From: Reinekea blandensis MED297
GTDB taxonomy: Bacteria; Pseudomonadota; Gammaproteobacteria; Pseudomonadales; Natronospirillaceae
Reading direction: 5' to 3'
DNA: 64,000 nt
NCBI RefSeq assembly: GCF_000153185.1
Contig: NZ_CH724149.1
Coordinates: forward strand, 386,789-450,788
How positions within the stretch are numbered: position 1 is the first letter of the stretch; every line of letters starts with the position of its first letter. The notes under the pieces were generated by a model, which was not told the DNA's origin, did no database searches, and was given only the letters and a program-made list of their open reading frames with translations. The translations under genes and the position numbers were made by a program. This document shows positions 5,033 through 20,533 of this stretch, piece by piece.

Positions 5033-5380
5033 TTACACCGCAAACTGAATCCAAACCTCGCCCGATTCCAGACGGCACGGCCAGACGTTCAATCGGGCGT
5101 CGGCGTCTTCCAGGCATTGACCGCTAATCAGGCTGTAATGTTGCTTGTAGAGCGGCGAGGCGACGCACAGTTCACCTTGCTGTGTACCGACAATGCCGCG
5201 TGCAATCACATTGGCGTCACAGAGTGGATCGTAGTGATCCACTGCGTAAATCTGTGGCTCATGATCTGGCAGATAAAACAGCGCTATCGACTGTCCCTGT
5301 ACTTTAATGGCAACACCGGAGTACTCAAACAGGTCCGATTGAGTGCAGACAGCTTGCCAGCTTTGTTGTGCAACGGTCAT
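5033..5380 (-). CDS. nirD: Nitrite reductase (NAD(P)H) small subunit
   Basis: A 115-residue NirD, the Rieske-fold small subunit of assimilatory or cytoplasmic nitrite reductase. It aligns with family features at IYAVDHYDPLCDANVIARGIVG and VASPLYKQHYSLISGQCLED. As in enterobacterial NirD, the full Cys-His Rieske ligand set is not present, so it probably does not hold a 2Fe-2S cluster. It starts 19 bases after nirB with GGAG upstream, so it is the second gene of the nirBD operon and shares the attenuated leader upstream of nirB. Confidence 0.95.
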   Translation of the reverse strand: MTVAQQSWQAVCTQSDLFEYSGVAIKVQGQSIALFYLPDHEPQIYAVDHYDPLCDANVIARGIVGTQQGELCVASPLYKQHYSLISGQCLEDADARLNVWPCRLESGEVWIQFAV

Positions 5381-5399
5381 AACAGTTCTCCTTGATGCG

Positions 5400-7937
5400 T
5401 CAGTCGGTGCTGACGGCGTGAATCAGATGTTGGCGTTCATCGGCGTTAGCCGGTCGGCGCTGACCGCGTTCATTGACAAAAACGATTGAGTCGTCAGGCT
5501 CAGCCGCATTCACAAACGTACGGAACCGTTTGAGCTTCTCCGGGTTGTCGAGTGTTGCGGCCCATTCGCACTGATAGGTGCTGATCAGGTGCTGCATCTG
5601 CGCTTCCAGTTCGGCGTTGATGCCGAGGTGATCATTGATGATGACATCACGCAGGTAATCCAATCCGCCATCGAGGTTTTCCAGCCAGCGGGCGGTACGT
5701 TGCAAGCGATCACCGGTACGAATGTAAAACATGAAGATTCGGTCGATGTAGCGGATCAGGGTTTCATCGTCGAGGTCGGTGGCAAACAAGTCGGCATGGC
5801 GCGGTTTCATGCCACCGTTGCCACAAACATAGAGATTCCAGCCGTTCTCAGTCGCAATGACGCCAAAGTCTTTGCTTTGCGCTTCGGCGCATTCACGGGT
5901 ACAGCCGCTGACGGCAAATTTGACTTTGTGAGGTGCACGAATGCCCTTGTAACGATGCTCAATCTGGATAGCCATACCGACCGAATCCTGCACGCCGTAG
6001 CGGCACCAGGTGCTGCCGACGCAGCTTTTTACCGTACGTACCGACTTGCCATAAGCCTGACCGGTTTCAAAACCGGCGTCGCGAAGCCGCTCCCAGATGA
6101 TCGGCAACTCGTGCAGTTGCGCCCCAAATAAGTCAATCCGCTGGCCACCGGTAATCTTGGTGTAGAGGTTAAAGTCTTTGGCAATTTCACCAATGCAGAT
6201 CAGCCCTTCGGGTGTGATTTCGCCGCCGGCAATTCTGGGCACCACCGAGTAGGTGCCGTTCTTTTGCATGTTCGCGAGAAAGGCATCGTTGGTGTCTTGC
6301 AGTGGCATGTGTTCCTTATCCAGAACATGCTCATTCCACAGCGATGCGAGTATGCCACCAACCGTTGGTTTGCAGATGTCGCAACCTAACCCTTCACCAT
6401 GTTCAGCCAGCAGTTCGCGGAAAGTTCTAATCTGTTTGCTTTGAATGATGTGCAACAGTTCGTCACGAGAGTAAGGGAAGTGCTCACACAGATGGTTGTT
6501 GACTTCGATGCCCTGTTTGACCAGTTCTGCGTTGACCGTGTCTTTAATCAATTGTGCGCAGCCGCCGCAACCGGTGGTTGCGTTGGTGGCATCTTTAACA
6601 TCAGCCACGCTGCAGCAACCCGCTTGCACGGCCTGAACAACATCGCCTTTGGTCACATTCAAGCATGAACACAACGTGGCGGTATCGGGCAGGGCGTCAC
6701 CATCCAACGTTGGCGCATCGCCGCTGTCGGGCAGGATAAAGACGGCAGGGTTTTCCGGCAGAGTCATGCCGTTGAGATAATACTGCAGCAGGGTGTCGTA
6801 GCCTTCTTTACTGCCGACAAGAACGGCCCCAAGAAGGTGCTGACCATCTGCGCTAACGACCAGCTTACGATAAACGTTGGCTTGGCCATCCGAGTATTCA
6901 TAAATGACGGCTCCGGCGGTTTGAGCATGCGCATCACCAATGGAGCAAACATCGGTGCCGAGTAACTTCAATTTGGTGGACATGTCGGCCCCGGAAAAGG
7001 GCTGCGACTGACCGCACAGGTGCGCGGCGGCGGCTTCCGCCATACGGTATCCCGGAGCGACAAGACCGAAAATCTGGTTGTTCCAACAGGCGACTTCACC
7101 GATGGCATAGATGTTTGGATCGGACGTCTGACAATCGTTGTTGATTAATACGCCACCGCGTTCGTGACGATCCAGGCCCGCTTGTTCTGCCAACTCATCA
7201 CGTGGACGAATACCGGCTGAGAAAACCACCAGATCGGTTTTTATACTCGGGTGGTCTTTGAAGTTCAGTTGGTAACGATGTGACTCGCCCGGTTCAATGT
7301 TCAGTGTGGCGTGATTCGTCAATACATCAACACCGGTCTCTTCGATAAGACGTTTTAAAAATTCACCGCCTCTTTCATCGACCTGCACCGGCATCAGTCT
7401 CGGTGCAAACTCAACCACTTGCGCTTCTAAACCCAAACTCTTTAGGGCATTAGCCGCTTCAAGTCCGAGCAGGCCACCGCCAATCACGGTACCGACGGTT
7501 GCGGATTTGGCACTGGCGGCAATGCTATCGAGATCGTCCAAGGTGCGGTAGACAAAGCAATGGTCTTGATCGCGTCCTTCAATGGGGGGCACAAACGGGT
7601 AAGAACCAGTCGCCAGTACCAGATGCGTGTAATCGAGCTGCTGGCCTTGATCGGTGGTGACGGTTTGGTTGTCACGATCGATGTCGACAACGCGGGCATT
7701 CGTCAGTGCCTCAATATTATTTTGTTGGTAATCGGCCGCAGAGGTCAAAGCCAGATGTTCGGCGCCTTGTTCAAAGTATTCAGACAGGTGGACGCGGTCA
7801 TAAGCCAGATGAGGCTCTTCCCCGATGAGGGTGATTTGCCATTGGTCGCGTTGGTTGGTGCTCTGTAGTTGTTGAATGAACTGTCGGATAAAGTGGTGGC
7901 CCACCATGCCTTGCCCGATAACCAGTAAGCGATTCAT
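5400..7937 (-). CDS. nirB: Nitrite reductase (NAD(P)H) large subunit
   Basis: An 845-residue NirB that reduces nitrite to ammonium in the cytoplasm. Domains in order: an N-terminal FAD/NAD(P)H oxidoreductase part (VIGQGMVGHHF, GGGLLGLEAANALKSLG), a BFD-like 2Fe-2S domain with CSCLNVTKGDV and CGGC, then the siroheme/4Fe-4S half with SCVGSTWCRYG and GCTRECAEAQSKDFG. Length fits the family (about 840-860). The start at ATG 7937 follows GGGAG. Expression should depend on read-through of the terminator just upstream, probably through the NIT-ANTAR protein encoded at 19265-20533. No assimilatory nitrate reductase gene lies in the window. Confidence 0.97.
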   Translation of the reverse strand: MNRLLVIGQGMVGHHFIRQFIQQLQSTNQRDQWQITLIGEEPHLAYDRVHLSEYFEQGAEHLALTSAADYQQNNIEALTNARVVDIDRDNQTVTTDQGQQLDYTHLVLATGSYPFVPPIEGRDQDHCFVYRTLDDLDSIAASAKSATVGTVIGGGLLGLEAANALKSLGLEAQVVEFAPRLMPVQVDERGGEFLKRLIEETGVDVLTNHATLNIEPGESHRYQLNFKDHPSIKTDLVVFSAGIRPRDELAEQAGLDRHERGGVLINNDCQTSDPNIYAIGEVACWNNQIFGLVAPGYRMAEAAAAHLCGQSQPFSGADMSTKLKLLGTDVCSIGDAHAQTAGAVIYEYSDGQANVYRKLVVSADGQHLLGAVLVGSKEGYDTLLQYYLNGMTLPENPAVFILPDSGDAPTLDGDALPDTATLCSCLNVTKGDVVQAVQAGCCSVADVKDATNATTGCGGCAQLIKDTVNAELVKQGIEVNNHLCEHFPYSRDELLHIIQSKQIRTFRELLAEHGEGLGCDICKPTVGGILASLWNEHVLDKEHMPLQDTNDAFLANMQKNGTYSVVPRIAGGEITPEGLICIGEIAKDFNLYTKITGGQRIDLFGAQLHELPIIWERLRDAGFETGQAYGKSVRTVKSCVGSTWCRYGVQDSVGMAIQIEHRYKGIRAPHKVKFAVSGCTRECAEAQSKDFGVIATENGWNLYVCGNGGMKPRHADLFATDLDDETLIRYIDRIFMFYIRTGDRLQRTARWLENLDGGLDYLRDVIINDHLGINAELEAQMQHLISTYQCEWAATLDNPEKLKRFRTFVNAAEPDDSIVFVNERGQRRPANADERQHLIHAVSTD

Positions 7938-7949
7938 TTTTCTTCTCCC

Positions 7950-7998
7950 AAAAAAAAAGCGCCCGAAAAAGAATCCTGACGGAATCTTTTTCGAGCGC
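7950..7998 (-). terminator. Leader terminator (attenuator) upstream of nirB
   Basis: On the minus strand an 18-base arm starting GCGCTCGAAAAAG (7998-7981) pairs with an arm at 7976-7959 across the loop GTCA, with one mismatch and one G-T pair, followed by nine Ts (7958-7950). It is a strong intrinsic terminator placed inside the leader, only 12 bases before the nirB ATG, so it must act as an attenuator and not as an end-of-gene signal. Its 5' arm overlaps an ANTAR-type hairpin (7991-8008). Confidence 0.9.
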
Positions 7999-8008
7999 CT
8001 TTACTCGA
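7991..8008 (-). promoter_or_regulatory. ANTAR-type antiterminator hairpin, nirB leader
   Basis: On the minus strand TCGAGT (8008-8003), six-base loop AAAGGC (8002-7997), GCTCGA (7996-7991) form six pairs closed by a T-G pair. The loop has A at position 1 and G at position 4, as in known ANTAR targets. Its 3' arm is part of the terminator's 5' arm, so the two folds exclude each other. The nirC-side hairpin at 8478-8491 has the same layout and the same closing T-G pair. Confidence 0.7.
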
Positions 8009-8033
8009 TGTGTCTGTGTTGTAAACGAACTTA

Positions 8034-8051
8034 ATGCACAGCTTGTGCCAT
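8034..8051 (-). promoter_or_regulatory. Possible sigma-54 promoter for nirBD
   Basis: Minus strand TGGCAC, five bases, GTGC keeps the invariant GG-N10-GC spacing but has GTGC in place of TTGC. Transcription would begin near 8024, leaving a short leader with the antiterminator hairpin and terminator but no room for a second hairpin. The segment is also a GCAC/GTGC inverted repeat, so it could be a protein site instead. Confidence 0.4.
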
Positions 8052-8122
8052 GGCCGGTAAAACTGTTTTCTACTGTGCGCCAATCCTATCACGACTGCGA
8101 GTTGTTGCAGCGACGTTACCGC

Positions 8123-8134
8123 GTTCCCGGGAAC
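8123..8134. repeat. Palindrome in nir control region
   Basis: GTTCCCGGGAAC is a perfect 12-base palindrome, about 190 bases upstream of nirB and 260 upstream of the sigma-54 site of the other operon. It may be a regulator site, but it matches no operator I know. The rest of 8140-8380 shows no gene; short frames there lack start signals and family features. Confidence 0.3.
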
Positions 8135-8386
8135 CCAACGCCCTTCATACTTTTTATAGAGGGCTTGGTTCGGGTGGTTGTAAGGGCAACGTACCCACTC
8201 AAAAAAAGTTCTCTTTTGGTGCAGGCGCTGCGGGGGAGGCTCAAAAAAGAGGCATCATGGTTTGGGCTGTTCGATGACGGTGGAACGCTTATTCGAGTTC
8301 GATCCCGGTGTTTTTAGGCTCGCTTTCACCAAAGCGCTGCCGGCTTTGCGCGGGTTTCGGCATGGGTTCATTTTTAAAGTTCGGTT

Positions 8387-8403
8387 TTGGCACACCCATT
8401 GCA
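8387..8403 (+). promoter_or_regulatory. Sigma-54 promoter of the nirC-kinase-cynS operon
   Basis: TTGGCAC-ACCCA-TTGCA matches the sigma-54 consensus YTGGCAC-N5-TTGCA at all key bases, with GG at 8389-8390 and GC at 8401-8402. Transcription should start near 8413-8414, eleven bases before the first leader hairpin. Sigma-54 dependence implies an NtrC-like activator, consistent with nitrogen control. Confidence 0.85.
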
Positions 8404-8424
8404 AAATCGAAATCAGCGTAGGCT

Positions 8425-8446
8425 CACTTTGCAATGGCGCACAGTG
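8425..8446 (+). promoter_or_regulatory. Leader hairpin 1, ANTAR type
   Basis: CACTTTGC (8425-8432) and GCACAGTG (8439-8446) pair at seven of eight positions around the six-base loop AATGGC, which has A at position 1 and G at position 4. It begins just after the predicted sigma-54 start. In characterised ANTAR leaders, the protein dimer contacts two such hairpins; this would be the upstream one. Confidence 0.7.
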
Positions 8447-8477
8447 AATAACATACGCGACTACAAAGTTTTATTCC

Positions 8478-8491
8478 GGGTAATGGAGCCC
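8478..8491 (+). promoter_or_regulatory. Leader hairpin 2, overlapping the terminator
   Basis: GGGT (8478-8481), loop AATGGA (8482-8487), GCCC (8488-8491): a short stem closed by T-G with A1 and G4 in the loop, sharing AATGG with the upstream hairpin. GCCC is also the beginning of the terminator's 5' arm, so folding this hairpin would block termination. Confidence 0.65.
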
Positions 8492-8537
8492 TAAGTTTTT
8501 GGCAATTTAAACTGCCAAAAGCTTAGGGCTTTTTTTT
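8488..8537 (+). terminator. Leader terminator (attenuator) upstream of nirC-like gene
   Basis: GCCCTAAG (8488-8495) pairs with CTTAGGGC (8522-8529) and TTTTGGCA (8497-8504) with TGCCAAAA (8513-8520), giving a 16-17 pair stem around ATTTAAAC, followed by eight Ts. It lies between the sigma-54 promoter and the first gene, so expression needs antitermination. Confidence 0.9.
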
Positions 8538-8599
8538 GTGCCTGAAACGGTTCGCTACGGAACAAGCCGTGGTAGGACAACACACAAGAGGACAGGACT

Positions 8600-9454
8600 A
8601 TGTCATATCTAGAGCCAAATGAGTTCGTTTCGAAAATGGTCGACGCGGGCGAATCCAAAGTGTTTATGTCGACAAAAGATACCTTTATCCGTGCCTTCAT
8701 GGCCGGTGCTATTTTGGGCTTAGCCGCCGTCTTTGCGATTACCGTCGCCACCTCGACCGGATCACCGATCTTAGGGGCTGTACTGTTCCCGGTAGGCTTC
8801 ATGATGCTTTATCTGATGAAGTTCGACTTGCTGACTGGTGTCTTTACGTTGGTACCGTTAGCGGTGTTGGATAAGCGACCTGGTGTGACCGTGAACCAGA
8901 TGCTGCGTAACTGGGGATTGGTGTTTTTAGGCAACTTTGCCGGTGCATTAACCACGGCGTTTATGATCGCGTTTATCCTGACCTATGGTTTTAACACCGA
9001 TGGCGGCGCGTTGGCGGCGAAGGTCAGCACCATTGGCGAGTCGCGTACGTTGGGTTATGCCGAGCATGGTGTGGCCGGTTGGTTCACCATCTTTATCCGC
9101 GGCATGCTATGCAACTGGATGGTTTCGATGGGCGTGGTGGGCGCGATGATTTCAACCTCCGCGACCGGGAAGATGGCCGCGATGTGGATGCCGGTGATGC
9201 TGTTCTTCTTTATGGGCTTTGAGCACTCCATTGTGAACATGTTTCTGTTCCCGTTCTCCATGATCATGGGTGGTGAGTTCACCTTCTCTCAATACATCAT
9301 CTGGAATGAGCTGCCAACGGCCTTGGGGAACCTGGTCGGCGGGATTGCGCTGGTCGGATTACCACTCTATCTGACCCACGTTCGTACCAGTCCGGCTCGT
9401 CAGCTGGCCGGTGCTAAACCGGTTGCGACTTCAGCTGCGAACGCTAACGCGTAA
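8600..9454 (+). CDS. Formate/nitrite transporter family channel (NirC-like)
   Basis: A 284-residue inner-membrane protein of the FNT family with six predicted membrane helices and the typical segments MAGAILGLAAVFAITVA, LFPVGFMMLYLMKFDLLTG, NWGLVFLGNFAGA and FMGFEHSIVNMFLFP, the last holding the conserved pore His. FNT channels pass formate, nitrite or hydrosulfide; nitrite is the likely substrate because nirBD is divergent and this gene opens an operon with a shared type of attenuator. It is followed ten bases later by a phosphatase-kinase fusion. It is clearly FNT; NirC rather than FocA is inferred from context. Confidence 0.92.
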   Translation: MSYLEPNEFVSKMVDAGESKVFMSTKDTFIRAFMAGAILGLAAVFAITVATSTGSPILGAVLFPVGFMMLYLMKFDLLTGVFTLVPLAVLDKRPGVTVNQMLRNWGLVFLGNFAGALTTAFMIAFILTYGFNTDGGALAAKVSTIGESRTLGYAEHGVAGWFTIFIRGMLCNWMVSMGVVGAMISTSATGKMAAMWMPVMLFFFMGFEHSIVNMFLFPFSMIMGGEFTFSQYIIWNELPTALGNLVGGIALVGLPLYLTHVRTSPARQLAGAKPVATSAANANA

Positions 9455-9463
9455 GACATTGCC

Positions 9464-11281
9464 ATGACGACCCTCACTGACTCACAACAGAACCTGACTC
9501 GCCGTCTTCAGGTTCAGGTGGGTCAGTGCAGCCGAGCCGGGCGTAAACCGCGCCAACAGGATTACTGCGGGGTGCATTGTCCGGACGGTTCGGCATTGAA
9601 TCAAAAGGGCGTGGTGGTGGCGCTGGCCGACGGTATCAGCTCCAGTGACGTCAGCCACATCGCCAGCCAGACCTGCGTGAGTACCTTGCTCGACGATTAC
9701 TATGCGACACCGGATACCTGGGGTGTCAGCGCATCGGTAAAGAAGGTACTGCAGTCGTTGAACTCCTGGCTGTATGCGCAAACCCGAAACAGTGTTTATC
9801 GTTACCATCTCGACAAAGGTTATGTCTGTACGTTAAGCGGTTTGGTGCTCCGTTCGCAGACCGCGACCATCTTTCATGTTGGTGACTCTAGAGTATGTCG
9901 CGTTGTTGGCAACGCACTGGAACCATTGACCGAAGATCATCGGGTGTCGATTGGCGAGGGGCATTCGTTGTCCCGCGCCATGGGCATGCGCGAACATCTG
10001 GACTTGCAGATTCTTCAACAGAAAATAGAGGTTGGCGATGTTTTTGTGTTGATGACCGATGGTGTTTACGACTGGGTTTCACCAACAGAACTGGTTCGTC
10101 TGCTGGCGGCATCGGATACAGATTTGAACGCCGCTGCAGAGTCGATCGTGCAACGTGCATTGGACAATGGGAGTGACGATAACTTAAGCCTGCAGTTGGT
10201 TCGTGTTCAACAGGTGCCGGCGGCACGGTTAGATGAGTTCAGCGACGATCAAACAGTGGCGCTTCCGGTTCCTGAAGCCCTGAGTGTCGGTCAACTGTTG
10301 GATGACTATCGCATTCAACGAATTTTGCATGCCAATCACCGCAGTATGGTGTATCTGGCCAGTGATCCCACGACCGGGCAACCGTTGGTCTTAAAAGTAC
10401 CGACACCGGGAGCGGCGTCGAACCCGGAGGTGTTGGCATCGTTCTGGAAAGAGGCCTGGGTCGCTCAACGGGTACGACACGCCAGTCTGTCGAAAGCCGC
10501 TCCGGTTACCAAAGAACGACGCGCCTGTTATCTGCCGCTTGAGTATTTTCCCGGTCAGAACCTGTCGCAATGGCGAGACGATCACGGTCAGCCGACGCTG
10601 ACGGACGTTCGGACCATTGTTGAGCAGGTCGCCAAGGGTGTGCAGGCGATGCATCGTATGCACATGATCCATCAGGACATACGACCACAGAATATTCTGA
10701 TCAATAAACATGGCCAGATCCGGATCATTGATTACGGCGCAACGCGAATCGAAGGGTTGCAGGAAACCGACCGGCCGGCACAGCAGTTGTTGCAGGGCGA
10801 GCTGCAGTTTTCGGCGCCGGAGTGTTTGCTGGGCTGGCCGGGTACTGAACAGAGCGATCTGTATGCTCTGGCGTGCCTGACCTATTTTTTACTGAGTGGT
10901 CGTTTGCCCTATCCCGCGGCGTTACAGCGCGCGGGAAGTCGCTCAGCACAGCGCAAGATCCGATACATCAGTCTGCATGAGTACAAGGTGGATGTCCCTC
11001 CTTGGTTAGACATGACCCTACGTAAAGCATTGCACATTGACCCGGCACATCGCTATTCGACCCTGTCAGAGTTTGTGTTCGATCTGACCCATCCCAACCC
11101 GGCTTTTACCCGAAGCGGGTCGGTTCCGTTTATTGAAAAACACCCCGTGGTGTTCTGGCAGAGCGTGTCAGCGATCTTGTTGTTTTTGCTGCTCATTCTG
11201 GCCGGTACACACCCGGGTATCCTTGCGCGCAAATCCGAACTTATCACGGGACAATCCGTCCCACTCGCACAACAGAGGTGA
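9464..11281 (+). CDS. PP2C phosphatase - Ser/Thr kinase fusion, membrane anchored
   Basis: A 605-residue signalling protein. Residues about 20-250 are a PP2C phosphatase with metal-binding motifs VALADGISSSD, HVGDSRVCR, LMTDGVYDWV and GSDDNLS. Residues about 280-545 are a Hanks-type kinase with VLKVPTPG (ATP lysine), catalytic loop IHQDIRPQNILI (HxD as HQD), DYG in place of DFG, and an APE-like SAPECLLG. A single membrane helix (FWQSVSAILLFLLLILAG) near the C-terminus anchors it with both catalytic parts in the cytoplasm. Fusions of this kind recur beside nirBD and nitrate uptake genes, for example PA1782 in Pseudomonas aeruginosa, so a role in nitrogen assimilation is likely, but targets are unknown. 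It lies ten bases after the FNT gene and four before cynS. Confidence 0.93.
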   Translation: MTTLTDSQQNLTRRLQVQVGQCSRAGRKPRQQDYCGVHCPDGSALNQKGVVVALADGISSSDVSHIASQTCVSTLLDDYYATPDTWGVSASVKKVLQSLNSWLYAQTRNSVYRYHLDKGYVCTLSGLVLRSQTATIFHVGDSRVCRVVGNALEPLTEDHRVSIGEGHSLSRAMGMREHLDLQILQQKIEVGDVFVLMTDGVYDWVSPTELVRLLAASDTDLNAAAESIVQRALDNGSDDNLSLQLVRVQQVPAARLDEFSDDQTVALPVPEALSVGQLLDDYRIQRILHANHRSMVYLASDPTTGQPLVLKVPTPGAASNPEVLASFWKEAWVAQRVRHASLSKAAPVTKERRACYLPLEYFPGQNLSQWRDDHGQPTLTDVRTIVEQVAKGVQAMHRMHMIHQDIRPQNILINKHGQIRIIDYGATRIEGLQETDRPAQQLLQGELQFSAPECLLGWPGTEQSDLYALACLTYFLLSGRLPYPAALQRAGSRSAQRKIRYISLHEYKVDVPPWLDMTLRKALHIDPAHRYSTLSEFVFDLTHPNPAFTRSGSVPFIEKHPVVFWQSVSAILLFLLLILAGTHPGILARKSELITGQSVPLAQQR

Positions 11282-11284
11282 TTT

Positions 11285-11725
11285 ATGAATAAAATCCAAA
11301 TGACTGAAACCATCATCAACGCCAAACTGTCGAAAGCCGTCAGTTGGGAATCGCTCGCGGCCGAAGTTGGTCTGGACCCGGTGTTTCTGACCTCCGCTTG
11401 TTTGGGGATGAACAGCTTGAAAGCGGAGGCTGCAGAAAGCCTTTGTCGCCTGCTAGAATTGCCCGATAGCATCGCTACTCAATTGCAACAATGCCCGTTA
11501 AAACAATGGGATCAAGCCGTTCCGACCGATCCGCTGATCTATCGGCTGTATGAAATTGTTGGCGTCTATGGCGGCACCATCAAAGAGTTGATTCACGAAA
11601 AATTTGGTGACGGCATTATGAGCGCGATCGATTTCAGTATGAACATTGAGAAAGAAGAGAACCCAGCGGGTGATCGCGTTAAAGTCACTATGAATGGTAA
11701 GTTCTTGCCTTATAAAAGTTGGTGA
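11285..11725 (+). CDS. cynS: Cyanate hydratase (cyanase)
   Basis: A 146-residue cyanase, which converts cyanate and bicarbonate to ammonia and CO2. The N-terminal helical part is followed by the signature region DPLIYRLYEIVGVYG, with the catalytic Arg and Glu, and GDGIMSAIDFSM with the catalytic Ser; the C-terminus GKFLPYKSW is typical. It starts four bases after the kinase stop (ATTT between), so it is translationally close to it and shares the attenuated sigma-54 promoter. This makes cyanate another nitrogen source under the same control as nitrite. No carbonic anhydrase CynT is nearby. Confidence 0.96.
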   Translation: MNKIQMTETIINAKLSKAVSWESLAAEVGLDPVFLTSACLGMNSLKAEAAESLCRLLELPDSIATQLQQCPLKQWDQAVPTDPLIYRLYEIVGVYGGTIKELIHEKFGDGIMSAIDFSMNIEKEENPAGDRVKVTMNGKFLPYKSW

Positions 11726-12890: not shown

Positions 12891-14003
12891 TTACGAGGCG
12901 CAGTTACTGAGACTTTGCATCAAGCGTAGAATCAACGTCTGGTACTGATTCACGCCTGGTTCAATATCAACCCCCAGCGGATCCATGATGCCGGTATAGA
13001 CATCGGTTCCATCAAAAACGGTTTTCACCAGATTCGGGTTAAATTGGGGTTCGGTAAAGATACAGCTCACGTTGAGATCGTTAACCGTTTGACGAATCTC
13101 TGCAACACGGGCGGGGCTTGGGTCGGATGCGTCAGAGACGGATAAGGCACCACTGGCCAGCACATCAAAGCGTGTCTCAAAATATTGATAGGCATCGTGA
13201 AAGACAATGAATTTCACATCACCTAAGGCATCGGCTTCGGCCTGAAGTTCGGTTATCAGACGATCCAGTTCGTTTGATGCCTGTTCGGCATTGCGGCGAT
13301 AGCGTTCAGCATTGGCGGGGTCCTGTTCAGCCAGGGTTGTTGCGATGTGCTGAAGCCATGCTTGCGCGTTGACAGGATCGAGCCAGACATGTGGATCGTC
13401 CCCATCATGTGAATGTGCATGACCCCCATGGTCGTGTTCATCGTGCTCGTGTTCGTGAGCGTCGTGGTCATGGTCGTGTTCATCGTGCTCGTCATGCTCA
13501 TGCTCGTGGGCGTCATGGTCGTGATCATCATGCTCGTGCTCGTCATGCTCATGTTCGTGGGCGTCATGATCGTGGTCGTGATCATCATGGTCGTGCTCGT
13601 CATGCTTATGCTCGTGGTCGTCATGATTGTGATCATGTGCCTCAAAAGTGGCCCCTTCCCGGAACGACAATAATTGTGTACCGCTCGAGTCCATCAAAGA
13701 AACGATCTCTGCCGAACCGGCCAGACTGTCCAGAGACTTATCCAACCAGGGCGTCAGGTCCTCACCAATCCAGAAAACAATGTCTGCTTTTGACAGCGCG
13801 CGAGCTTCTGAAGGGCGCAGGTTGTATTCGTGTGGTGAGTTTTCTGGTTTGATCAATAACGCCGGTTCACCGATACCGCGCATGACCTGTGCGACCAGTG
13901 AATGAACCGGGGCAATGTCAGTCACGACCTTTGGCACGTCCGCCAGGGTGGCCGTGCTCAATGTCAGTATGGACACCGACAGAGCGATTTTCTTAAGCAG
14001 CAT
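12891..14003 (-). CDS. znuA: Zinc ABC transporter, periplasmic binding protein
   Basis: A 370-residue cluster A-I binding protein with signal peptide (cleavage near STATLA-DV). Zinc ligands are seen at SPHEYNLRPSEARAL, at the His of HVWLDPVNAQ, at FHDAYQYFE and near the C-terminus; a Cys near the end (SNCAS) is also typical of ZnuA. Between about residues 120 and 205 lies an unusually long His/Asp/Glu loop, much longer than in E. coli ZnuA, proposed in the family to collect zinc. It is divergent from znuCB across a Zur box and is probably followed in the same transcript by the NicO-type gene. Confidence 0.96.
   Translation of the reverse strand: MLLKKIALSVSILTLSTATLADVPKVVTDIAPVHSLVAQVMRGIGEPALLIKPENSPHEYNLRPSEARALSKADIVFWIGEDLTPWLDKSLDSLAGSAEIVSLMDSSGTQLLSFREGATFEAHDHNHDDHEHKHDEHDHDDHDHDHDAHEHEHDEHEHDDHDHDAHEHEHDEHDEHDHDHDAHEHEHDEHDHGGHAHSHDGDDPHVWLDPVNAQAWLQHIATTLAEQDPANAERYRRNAEQASNELDRLITELQAEADALGDVKFIVFHDAYQYFETRFDVLASGALSVSDASDPSPARVAEIRQTVNDLNVSCIFTEPQFNPNLVKTVFDGTDVYTGIMDPLGVDIEPGVNQYQTLILRLMQSLSNCAS
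13412..13640 (-). repeat. Low-complexity tandem repeats coding the His/Asp loop of znuA
   Basis: Imperfect repeats of HDHDAHEHEHDEH-type units are visible both in protein and DNA. Several units of about 36-45 bases are nearly identical, so this stretch is expected to vary in length between strains by slippage and is a place where assembly may err. Long open frames on the opposite strand here are artefacts of the repeat. Confidence 0.85.
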
Positions 14004-15668: not shown

Positions 15669-16866
15669 TAAAAAAATACCCGTGACGGTACTGTCGGGGT
15701 TTCTGGGTGCCGGAAAGACGACGGTACTCAGTCACATTCTGAACAATCGCGAAGGCAAGCGCGTCGCTGTCATCGTCAATGACATGAGTGAAATTAATAT
15801 TGATTCGGCAATTGTGCAGAACGATGTTTCGTTAAACCGGCACGAGGAAAAGCTGGTCGAAATGAGTAATGGCTGCATTTGCTGCACTTTGCGCGAAGAC
15901 CTGTTGTTAGAAGTCCGCAAGCTCGCCGAAGATGGTCGCTTCGACTATCTGGTCATTGAGTCAACGGGGATATCTGAGCCGTTGCCGGTCGCGGAAACCT
16001 TCACCTTTGCCGATGAAGACGGCGTGTCACTATCCGATGTTGCTACACTCGATACGATGGTCACGGTGGTCGATGCCGTAAATTTCATGACCGATTACGA
16101 GCAGGCGAAATCGCTGCAGGAAACCGATGAATCGTTGGGCGACGAGGATCATCGCAGTGTGGCGGATCTGCTGGTGGATCAGGTCGAGTTTGCCGATATC
16201 CTGCTGATCAGCAAAGCCGATTTGGTGTCGGAAGCCGACATCGACAAACTGACCGCGATTCTGCGCTCGCTGAATACCGAGGCGAGTATTTTGCCCATCA
16301 CCCATGGAGCGGTGCCGATCAACGAGGTTTTAAACACTGGGCGTTTCGACTTCAACAAAGCACAGTTGGCCCCAGGGTGGCTGAAGGAGCTGCGTGGCGA
16401 ACATGTTCCGGAAACGGAAGAATATGGCATCGGCAGTTTCAGTTATGTGGCGCGACGACCGTTTCACCCGCAAAAGTTTTTTGACTTTCTGCATGGGACG
16501 TCACCGTATGGGAAACTGATTCGCTCGAAAGGTTTCTTCTGGTTGGCAACCCGCCCGGAATTTGCCGGGCAATGGAGCCAGGCGGGTGGGATCGCGCATT
16601 ATGGATTTGCCGGATTATTTTGGAAGGCCGTACCGAAAGATCGATGGCCAGACGATCCCGAGTACCTTAACGCCATCCGTGAGCACTGGGTTGAGCCGTT
16701 TGGTGATATGCGTCAGGAACTGGTTTTTATCGGCCAGGGTTTGGACAAAGACGCCATGGTGGCCGCGCTCGATCAGTGCCTGCTGACTGAGGAAGAAGTG
16801 CTGCAGGGGAAAGAGGTTTGGAAGACATTGCCCGATCCGTTTCCAGCGTGGGAGGCCGCGCAATGA
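15661..16866 (+). CDS. COG0523 GTPase, zinc metallochaperone type (ZigA/YciC-like)
   Basis: A 401-residue G3E GTPase. Walker A is [10 protein letters not shown] near residue 15, the metal-binding CxCC motif is NGCICCTL near residue 72, the switch [11 protein letters not shown] follows, and the guanine-specificity motif is SKADLVS. The C-terminal CobW domain ends with the [13 protein letters not shown] and [13 protein letters not shown] stretches typical of the zinc-limitation subgroup. Such proteins (ZigA, YciC, ZNG1) hand zinc to client enzymes under shortage. It overlaps znuB and is followed by DUF1826 in an ATGA overlap, so it belongs to the Zur regulon. Confidence 0.93.
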
Positions 16867-19264: not shown

Positions 19265-20533
19265 TCAGCCCCAGTGGTCGATGTTCAGGATGGTGTCGGC
19301 AATCTCCACCAGACGTTGATTGTGCCGCATCGCGGAGCTGCGCAGTTCGCGATGAGCCGCTTCTTCGCTGATGTCCATCTTAGCCATCAGCACCCCCTTA
19401 GCCCGTTCGATCAGTTTGCGATCCTCCAGCATCTGCTGAGCCGTTTGCAGATCCGATTCAGCTTGCGCCAATTGTTGCGATTGCTGTTGCACGAGGTCAT
19501 ACAACGGGTGGGCACTCTGTGTCGCCTTCTGACTGACGTTCAAGCGAAAGTTACTGTTCTCATGCGCCAGCGATTGCTGCTGAAAAAACTCCATTGGCTC
19601 AACGGGCGGTTGATTCTTGGTGTTCATGAACTGCTGGATCAGTTCCTCGGAGTTTTCAAGTTTCTTTGTGGCGTCGTCGATAAACTCCGTGCAAAGCTGT
19701 TGAATGCGCTCAACCAGCGTCTGTTGAATGGTCCAGAGTTTGGAAATACGGTCGCTGCAGCAATCAAACCAGTCGCCACTGCGATCTGGGTCTAAATGAG
19801 TGTCGGGGGTCAGCGAATAGAACTCCTGGCGCATCGCCTTAAATGTCGCATTGCTCTGTAATGCATCAAGCTGTTGAATCATTGCACCAATATCGTGCTC
19901 GCAAAAGTCAACAAAGGTGGCAAAGTTGCGTTCCTGGTTCTCCTTTAGATGAGTTAACTTGGCCTGATGCTCGGCTTTGCAACCGCCGCCGGCAAACGCC
20001 AGAGCCCCGACAGCCCGTTCCTGCCCCGCCAGTTCTTTGCCCTCAACCAGGCTGAACAGACTGACCAGCAACTTACTGATGGTGGGGTGCACGGACGTAT
20101 CGGCCAGCTCAAATATGAGGTTGATGAGTACGCTGATTAACTGGCTGTAGGTTGTTACAGAGGCGTCGCCCTTAACCTTCAACGCGGTGACATCGGCGCG
20201 AAAGGGTTCCATGGCTTCTAAGCCTAGAATGACCCAGGCCAGTTGGTTGGCGATCTTCCGGTTGGCCAGTGCTGGCTCAGAGAGCACTGTTTCTAAGGTT
20301 GAGATTAGCAGGTTGGCAATGGTTCGTGACTCACCGATCAGCTGTTCTCTATTGTGCTGAAACCGGGTGCCGCGCGAGGCAATGTAAATACTGCTGGCGC
20401 CTCGTTCACTCTGCAGGCAATGAATGAGATGACCGGCCATGCCCGCGAGCATGGCGCGGGTGTGCAAGGCTTTCAGGTCTGCAATCTCCAGTTGTTTAGC
20501 GTGCAGCAATACGGCACCGGTCGAGGCCGACAT
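19265..20533 (-). CDS. nasR: NIT-ANTAR nitrate/nitrite-responsive antiterminator
   Basis: A 422-residue protein with an N-terminal NIT (nitrate/nitrite sensing) helical domain (from HLIHCLQSERGASSIYIASRG to about residue 300) and a C-terminal ANTAR RNA-binding domain (residues about 365-420: LIERAKGVLMAKMDISEEAAHRELR and following). This is the architecture of Klebsiella NasR, which binds leader RNA when nitrate or nitrite is present and prevents termination. The start at ATG 20533 has AAGGAGCC upstream. The obvious targets are the nirB and nirC leaders 11 kb away, which carry matching hairpins. It stands alone in its transcription unit. Symbol given by architecture and context. Confidence 0.92.
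   Translation of the reverse strand: MSASTGAVLLHAKQLEIADLKALHTRAMLAGMAGHLIHCLQSERGASSIYIASRGTRFQHNREQLIGESRTIANLLISTLETVLSEPALANRKIANQLAWVILGLEAMEPFRADVTALKVKGDASVTTYSQLISVLINLIFELADTSVHPTISKLLVSLFSLVEGKELAGQERAVGALAFAGGGCKAEHQAKLTHLKENQERNFATFVDFCEHDIGAMIQQLDALQSNATFKAMRQEFYSLTPDTHLDPDRSGDWFDCCSDRISKLWTIQQTLVERIQQLCTEFIDDATKKLENSEELIQQFMNTKNQPPVEPMEFFQQQSLAHENSNFRLNVSQKATQSAHPLYDLVQQQSQQLAQAESDLQTAQQMLEDRKLIERAKGVLMAKMDISEEAAHRELRSSAMRHNQRLVEIADTILNIDHWG

Follow-up and report, generated by a model that had tools for sequence, protein, structure and literature searches.

Two operons of Reinekea blandensis MED297 diverge from a control region at 7.94-8.60 kb of a 64,000-nucleotide window (the whole stretch of DNA that was analyzed), and each is preceded by a leader that resembles the target of an ANTAR antitermination protein. 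Why does only one of these two leaders carry the pair of hairpins by which such RNAs are defined? On the minus strand, the nirBD operon (5033-7937) encodes the large subunit of NADH-dependent nitrite reductase, NirB (5400-7937, ATG at 7937; PF07992, PF01077, PF04324 and PF03460), and its Rieske-like small subunit, NirD (5033-5380; PF13806, 4.2e-34). On the plus strand, the second operon (8600-11725) encodes a formate/nitrite transporter family member, NirC (8600-9454, ATG at 8600; PF01226, 1.4e-65), followed 3′ of nirC by a combined PP2C-type phosphatase and protein kinase (9464-11281; PF13672 and PF00069) and by the cyanate lyase CynS (11285-11725; PF02560, 9.2e-38, and PF21291). Gene names in both operons follow Pfam families. 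The window also encodes a NasR-like NIT-ANTAR regulator (19265-20533, minus strand; NIT PF08376, 7.6e-38, and ANTAR PF03861, 1.3e-17), which a first-pass annotation made from the letters alone had proposed to control both operons through one RNA switch. That annotation called the lack of a first hairpin on the nirB side a real puzzle.

The nirC leader has the familiar design, with its elements in the order sigma-54-like site, first hairpin (P1), linker, second hairpin (P2) and terminator. Specifically, the −24/−12 site (TGGCACACCCATTGC; 8388-8402, plus strand) carries 10 of 10 consensus letters with GG-N10-GC spacing; with transcription beginning 12 nt beyond the −12 element of the sigma-54 consensus, the predicted nirC start is at about 8414. 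Downstream of it lies P1 (CACTtTGC-AATGGC-GCAcAGTG; 8425-8446, plus strand), the additional AATGGC hairpin already seen in the first pass. Its stem has three unbroken pairs at the loop, or seven with one T·C mismatch, such that it counts when one mismatch is allowed and is excluded by a stricter unbroken-stem rule; at least 7 pairs arose in 105 of 20,000 shuffles. P2 (GGGT-AATGGA-GCCC; 8478-8491, plus strand) is closed by T-G, and its 3′ arm is used by the intrinsic terminator and T-run (8488-8537, plus strand), making the two structures mutually exclusive. Thus, both hairpins have stems of at least 3 bp and hexaloops with A at position 1 (A1) and G at position 4 (G4), and P2 overlaps and excludes the terminator, as in known dual-hairpin ANTAR RNAs.

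The linker of 31 nt (36 nt if only the unbroken 3-bp P1 stem is counted) falls outside the published range, which, as far as the accessible text of the sources goes, is 5-12 nt for dual-hairpin eut RNAs with A1 and G4, where change was not tolerated (PMC3369931), and 2-25 nt for curated actinobacterial ANTAR RNAs (PMC8164766). Among related leaders listed, 22 of 45 have linkers longer than 25 nt. Judged by its sequence, the nirC leader belongs to the ANTAR RNAs; its linker exceeds published limits, yet linkers of such length are common among relatives. The resemblance is close to nirC leaders in Zoogloeaceae/Rhodocyclaceae MAGs (L072, L073, L074, L076 and L077), where the NIT-ANTAR gene is adjacent and nirC is followed by the kinase/phosphatase gene, as in the window. 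The distance from sigma-54 site to P2 is 74-77 nt in those leaders and 75 nt in the window, and their P1-P2 linkers span 40-43 nt. P2 is closed by C-G in L074, L076 and L077 and by T-G in the window, whereas L072 and L073 have G rather than A at P2 loop position 1. The same G (in GACGGC or GATGGC loops) is present before nirC in L111, L116 and L127 and before nrtA in L132; these P2 loops before expected genes are natural exceptions to the A1 rule.

The nirB leader is organized differently. Its sigma-54-like site (TGGCACAAGCTGTGC; 8036-8050, minus strand) has 9 of 10 consensus letters with the correct GG-N10-GC spacing, and the predicted start at about 8024 leaves about 17 nt of RNA before P2 (CGAGT-AAAGGC-GCTCG; 7992-8007, minus strand). 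This hairpin is closed by T-G, has A1 and G4, and overlaps and excludes an intrinsic terminator with a T-run (7950-7998, minus strand), which a simple terminator/promoter scan missed while listing that of nirC. The two strong terminators directly before the first genes, the use of each P2 3′ arm as terminator 5′ arm and the T-G-closed loops AAAGGC and AATGGA are read directly from the DNA, exactly as the first pass had described them. No P1 precedes the nirB P2 within 80 nt, and the 28 nt between the sigma-54-like site and P2 leave no room for one. An inverted repeat of the sigma-54 site (GCACA-AGC-TGTGC) was rejected as P1 given its 3-nt loop and its location upstream of the predicted start. 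Although the nirB leader does not fit the dual-hairpin definition, no P1 standing before P2, it may still function as an ANTAR leader does.

The puzzle is not confined to nirB. Contig C4 of the same genome carries a second nitrate locus with divergent homologues of nrtA (PF13379) and nasA (PF04879), the latter name being supported also by relatives in which the PF04879 gene adjoins nirBD. Each gene is preceded by a P2/terminator leader. The nrtA-like leader (L151:1069-1122, minus strand) is of the dual-hairpin design, with a sigma-54 site (TGGCATAGCTTCTGC), P1 (CAGAC-AACGAT-GTCTG) and a 28-nt linker; nirC and nrtA thus both retain P1 and P2. The nasA-like leader (L151:1411-1472, plus strand) has a single hairpin, with a sigma-54 site (TGGCATAAGCTGTGC) 25 nt before P2, about 14 nt of predicted RNA ahead of P2 and no A1..G4 hairpin of at least 3 pairs within 150 nt. 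A hairpin at its 5′ end (GATA-CAAAAC-TATC) lacks both A1 and G4 and was rejected as P1. A P2 leader within 700 nt is found at 3 of 30 nasA loci from relatives and this genome, and in the same-genus genome G001 nasA is directly downstream of nirB. The best NtrC-like sites in both intergenic regions match 9 of 12 letters, a score equalled in 168 and 91 of 500 shuffles. A genome search with covariance model R1, in which 150 of 1,045 candidates were scored and nirB itself was missed, gave 15 weaker matches; inspected in their loci, they included one weak P2-like site, closed by neither C-G nor T-G, and no convincing leader. Given this scoring depth, four is a lower bound, and the regulon would comprise at least four leaders of two designs.

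Could these hairpins be chance foldbacks beside ordinary terminators? When each terminator was held fixed and the 60 nt upstream were shuffled with dinucleotides preserved (20,000 shuffles each), a fitting P2 arose 204 times for nirB, 49 for nirC, 7 for nasA and 61 for nrtA. Taken alone, the nirB element (p~0.01) gives the chance explanation some room, but the four P2 elements together are far beyond chance, and they stand in one genome at the four operons where they would be expected, with a model built from other genomes finding every one of them. A survey of 82 sources (L070-L149, L152 and the window) found an A1..G4 P2 with 64 of the 96 strong terminators that precede nirB, nirC, nrtA or nasA, compared with 9 of 694 other strong terminators. 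The 96 include duplicates; among distinct leaders the count is 64 of 77, rising to 70 of 77 when G is accepted at loop position 1, and of the 7 leaders then without P2, four show one in a looser scan (two each in L100 and L101). The background of 9 in 694 may even be overstated, since two of its matches (L095 and L117) fall directly downstream of the NIT-ANTAR gene, a place occupied in many other loci by nrtA with an ANTAR-type leader. We therefore regard chance folding as very improbable. In L092, at position 16250, an ANTAR-type P2/terminator precedes an ORF that by eye encodes a siroheme-synthase-type methyltransferase.

Model searches give the same picture. A scan of both strands of the 64-kb window for P2/terminator arrangements returned 4 matches, and terminator folds below −20 kcal/mol were obtained only for the nirB and nirC leaders; Rfam at gathering score gave 0 matches in the window. 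Covariance model R2, built on 58 leaders that all came from other genomes, was run on 13 sources of this genome (101,743 bases) and scored nrtA at 30.8, nirB at 22.9, nasA at 19.9 and nirC at 19.5 bits (E-values over these bases of 1.6e-4 for nirB and 1.4e-3 for nirC), with the best match outside the four leaders at 12.9 bits (E 0.094). Whole-genome matches at E<=0.05 were nrtA, nirB and nasA, nirC not being among them. Over 57 genomes with 93 candidates scored in each, R2 found a match in 24 of 32 genomes with an ANTAR protein versus 1 of 25 without (G055, E 0.017), for a Fisher p of 2.7e-8 that ignores kinship and counts matches unchecked individually. The absence of a match in 8 of the ANTAR genomes speaks against the reading, though misses are to be expected with 93 candidates scored per genome.

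Covariation is also present in related leaders, so the outcome that the first-pass annotation had named as a refutation, stems without covariation, did not occur. In an alignment of 62 leaders, P2 pairs are formed in 98.8% of cells, a percentage biased by the choice of leaders for having P2. Both sides of a pair are changed in 34 cells, compared with a mean of 10.3 after shuffling, and this excess is lost when the partner is slid. The second pair from the loop exchanges A-U and G-C (32 versus 23 leaders), which remains informative despite the selection.

The missing P1 is a genuine puzzle. In 70 distinct P2 leaders from NIT-ANTAR loci and this genome, a sigma-54-like site was found in 67; 65 of these have it 42-124 nt from P2, the exceptions being the 25 nt of nasA and 28 nt of nirB in this genome. 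With 29 further leaders from relatives the site is found in 94 of 99, compared with 183 of 9,900 simple shuffles of the upstream sequences, and the only other short leader among the 99, that of nasA in G039 (34 nt), likewise lacks P1. By a rule calling for A or G first, G fourth and at least 4 pairs with one mismatch allowed, P1 is present in 61 of the 99 leaders, and nearly all of the 38 without it have room for one. A recognizable P1 is often absent, but room for P1 rarely is. Thus, the missing P1 at nirB and nasA goes with the position of the promoter, and does so at both reductase operons. What is new here is that the sigma-54 site of these two genes stands too near P2 for a P1 to fit.

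Alternatively, nirB and nasA might have a distant or non-canonical P1 that is included in a longer transcript from a further upstream promoter. Upstream of the nirB P2, the first 150 nt contain an A1..G4 hairpin of 5 pairs at a distance of 99 nt and another of 3 pairs at 128 nt; the nearer one (GCGGT-AACGTC-GCTGC; 8107-8122, minus strand) has A1, G4 and a T-G closing pair. The 38 of 99 leaders without P1 by our rule, nearly all of which have room for one, also hint that odd P1 forms may exist. However, both distant hairpins stand upstream of the 9/10 sigma-54 site, a simple scan found no sigma-70-type site at 7930-8620, and a 99-nt linker exceeds the spacings given in the accessible reports. 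When the 150 nt were shuffled, at least one such 5-pair hairpin also appeared in 307 of 5,000 cases (about 6%), indicating that the hairpin at 8107-8122 is probably due to chance, and at nasA no comparable hairpin exists within 150 nt. We consider this alternative unlikely. In the Marinobacter nirB leaders L116, L127 and L130, an upstream hairpin with an 8-base loop (ACGGATCA, AAGGATCA or AAGGATTG) has A1 and G4, and is perhaps an enlarged P1.

A different possibility is that the short leaders have decayed, such that P2 is a remnant and the terminator is a fixed attenuator or is overcome in some other way. The absence of P1, which is required in the eut system as described in the accessible text of PMC3369931, speaks for this. 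So does the likeness of nirB and nasA: over the stretch that begins 60 nt ahead of the sigma-54 site and runs up to P2, their similarity score was matched by 1 of 1,000 shuffles (307 of 1,000 for the upstream 60 nt alone), and one event may explain both. These promoter-leader stretches fit a shared origin, with the sigma-54 consensus contributing to the score. Decay would not, however, be expected to leave P2, the A1..G4 loop and the terminator all intact at both genes, nor the P2 loop and 3′ arm of nirB identical to those in the same-genus genome G001 (GAGC-AAAGGC-GCTC) when divergence is seen in the upstream leader and in the upper part of the terminator stem. We judge decay to be quite unlikely, and favor the reading in which all four leaders are functional.

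The G001 leader is also instructive with regard to the regulator. The NIT-ANTAR protein has no match in the six same-genus genomes searched (G001-G006); each instead encodes one NasT-sized ANTAR protein from an open frame of 196-204 aa. This suggests that NasT was exchanged for NIT-ANTAR on a retained RNA element. No ANTAR protein other than the NIT-ANTAR regulator was found in the MED297 genome (96.76% completeness), and this regulator has the fusion of NIT to ANTAR that typifies NasR, matching chain 4akk_A ('nitrate regulatory protein') at 1.6e-32. Aligned to NasR, it keeps R340, K341, K347, R366, N373, E191 and R176, including the E191-R340 pair, and has R for K345; roles in RNA binding and the ligand pocket are assigned to NasR residues in the accessible text of PMC7496416. 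W362 of NasR, where replacement by A left RNA binding severely impaired according to the same text, corresponds to H394, and two relatives, L003 and L004, likewise have H. R193 and Q194, the autoinhibitory partners in NasR, correspond to Q190 and A191, so that autoinhibition may have been rewired. For a NasR-like mechanism, the retained residues speak in favor and these replacements against. The nearest NIT-ANTAR proteins found are those of L070 and L071 (an identity figure of 43%, compared with 26-32% for same-family proteins), and the leaders of the L070 nirB homologue and of L071 nirC are closed by T-G too. A quick tree placed the window protein with these two in a clade of mostly betaproteobacterial members, but on a long end branch (1.48), and we do not claim horizontal transfer.

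Regulation of both operons by this protein, as the first pass proposed, gains from its being the sole ANTAR protein found and from a nirC leader whose P1, P2 and terminator resemble those of relatives. The proposed gene set fares well in part: nirC and the kinase/phosphatase gene lie near NIT-ANTAR in 12 of 80 NIT-ANTAR loci examined (L071-L074, L076, L077, L093, L099, L111, L116, L118 and L127), and in L099 cynS is also present beside them. The notion of one RNA switch for two operons does not survive, given two leader designs and at least four leaders including nrtA and nasA on C4. In the window itself, cynS and NIT-ANTAR are about 7.5 kb apart, and several of the other genes in between look zinc-related by eye. 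One ORF of this zinc-type cluster (12891-14003), with cynS on one side and NIT-ANTAR on the other, appears by eye to encode a ZnuA-type zinc-binding protein with long His/Asp-rich repeats.

The kind of control proposed here is already known from Pseudomonas, where nirBD is governed by sigma-54, NtrC and NasT acting on the leader NalA (accessible portions of PMC8092218 and PMC12830290). There the regulator is NasT with its sensor NasS, whereas here the only ANTAR protein found is NIT-ANTAR. A further parallel is NasR acting on nasF in Klebsiella oxytoca, which shares a one-component NIT-ANTAR regulator, A1..G4 hexaloops and a P2 that excludes the terminator. Unlike the one nas operon of Klebsiella, the genome studied here has four separate leaders, of which those of nirB and nasA lack P1, and W362, R193 and Q194 of NasR are replaced. 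Hexaloop recognition and the exclusion of the terminator by P2 are also shared with the dual-hairpin RNA of EutV in Enterococcus, where linkers are 5-12 nt, in contrast to 31 nt for nirC and no P1 at all for nirB. We found no paper on this regulon in literature searches on NasR/nirC/kinase and on NasT/nirB(D), and no natural P1-less ANTAR leader described in the accessible text of PMC8934654 and PMC7496416.

We think it probable that NasR-like antitermination operates at all four leaders, through dual hairpins at nirC and nrtA and single hairpins at nirB and nasA. Under nitrogen limitation, sigma-54 RNA polymerase would start the four transcripts, each of which by default would end at its leader terminator. 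A dimer of NIT-ANTAR bound to nitrate or nitrite would hold P2, and because the 3′ arm of P2 is the 5′ arm of the terminator, the terminator could not form and the genes would be read. At nirC and nrtA, P1 would recruit the protein first. At nirB and nasA, where the predicted start is so near P2 that P1 is absent, the protein would act on P2 alone. We infer both this binding and the read-through that would follow, together with the predicted starts and the order of induction considered next.

Can a single hairpin suffice? In the accessible text of PMC7496416, which also reports SELEX with NasR, that protein binds P2 alone with about 12 uM and P1P2 with about 1 uM; if this weaker but real binding is valid here, P2-only leaders would probably need a larger amount of active regulator, and induction of the two reductases would come after that of the nirC and nrtA operons or fall short of it. 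EutV binds isolated hexaloops, and a model with one recruitment hairpin and one antitermination hairpin has been proposed (PMC8934654, accessible text). The remaining eut data, from similarly partial texts, point the other way: deletion of P1 abolished in vivo induction (PMC3369931), binding was weaker to a single hairpin and abolished without the second hairpin (PMC3369931, PMC8934654), and extending the linker by 20 nt abolished activity (PMC8934654). If these rules hold here, then neither a P1-less leader nor a 31-nt linker is expected to work. A two-tier regulon, in which one protein antiterminates on P2 alone at nirB and nasA and serves the dual-hairpin operons first, is thus a tentative proposal to which we give somewhat less than an even chance.

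If true, single-hairpin antitermination would break the rule derived from eut, by which both hairpins are needed at a fixed spacing, and searches demanding two hairpins would overlook such leaders. R. blandensis, in whose genome one ANTAR protein was found alongside two leaders of the dual-hairpin design and two that appear to have a single hairpin, offers a natural experiment that touches on a mechanistic question: what makes two hairpins necessary in ANTAR RNAs, and whether or not P1 serves only for recruitment.
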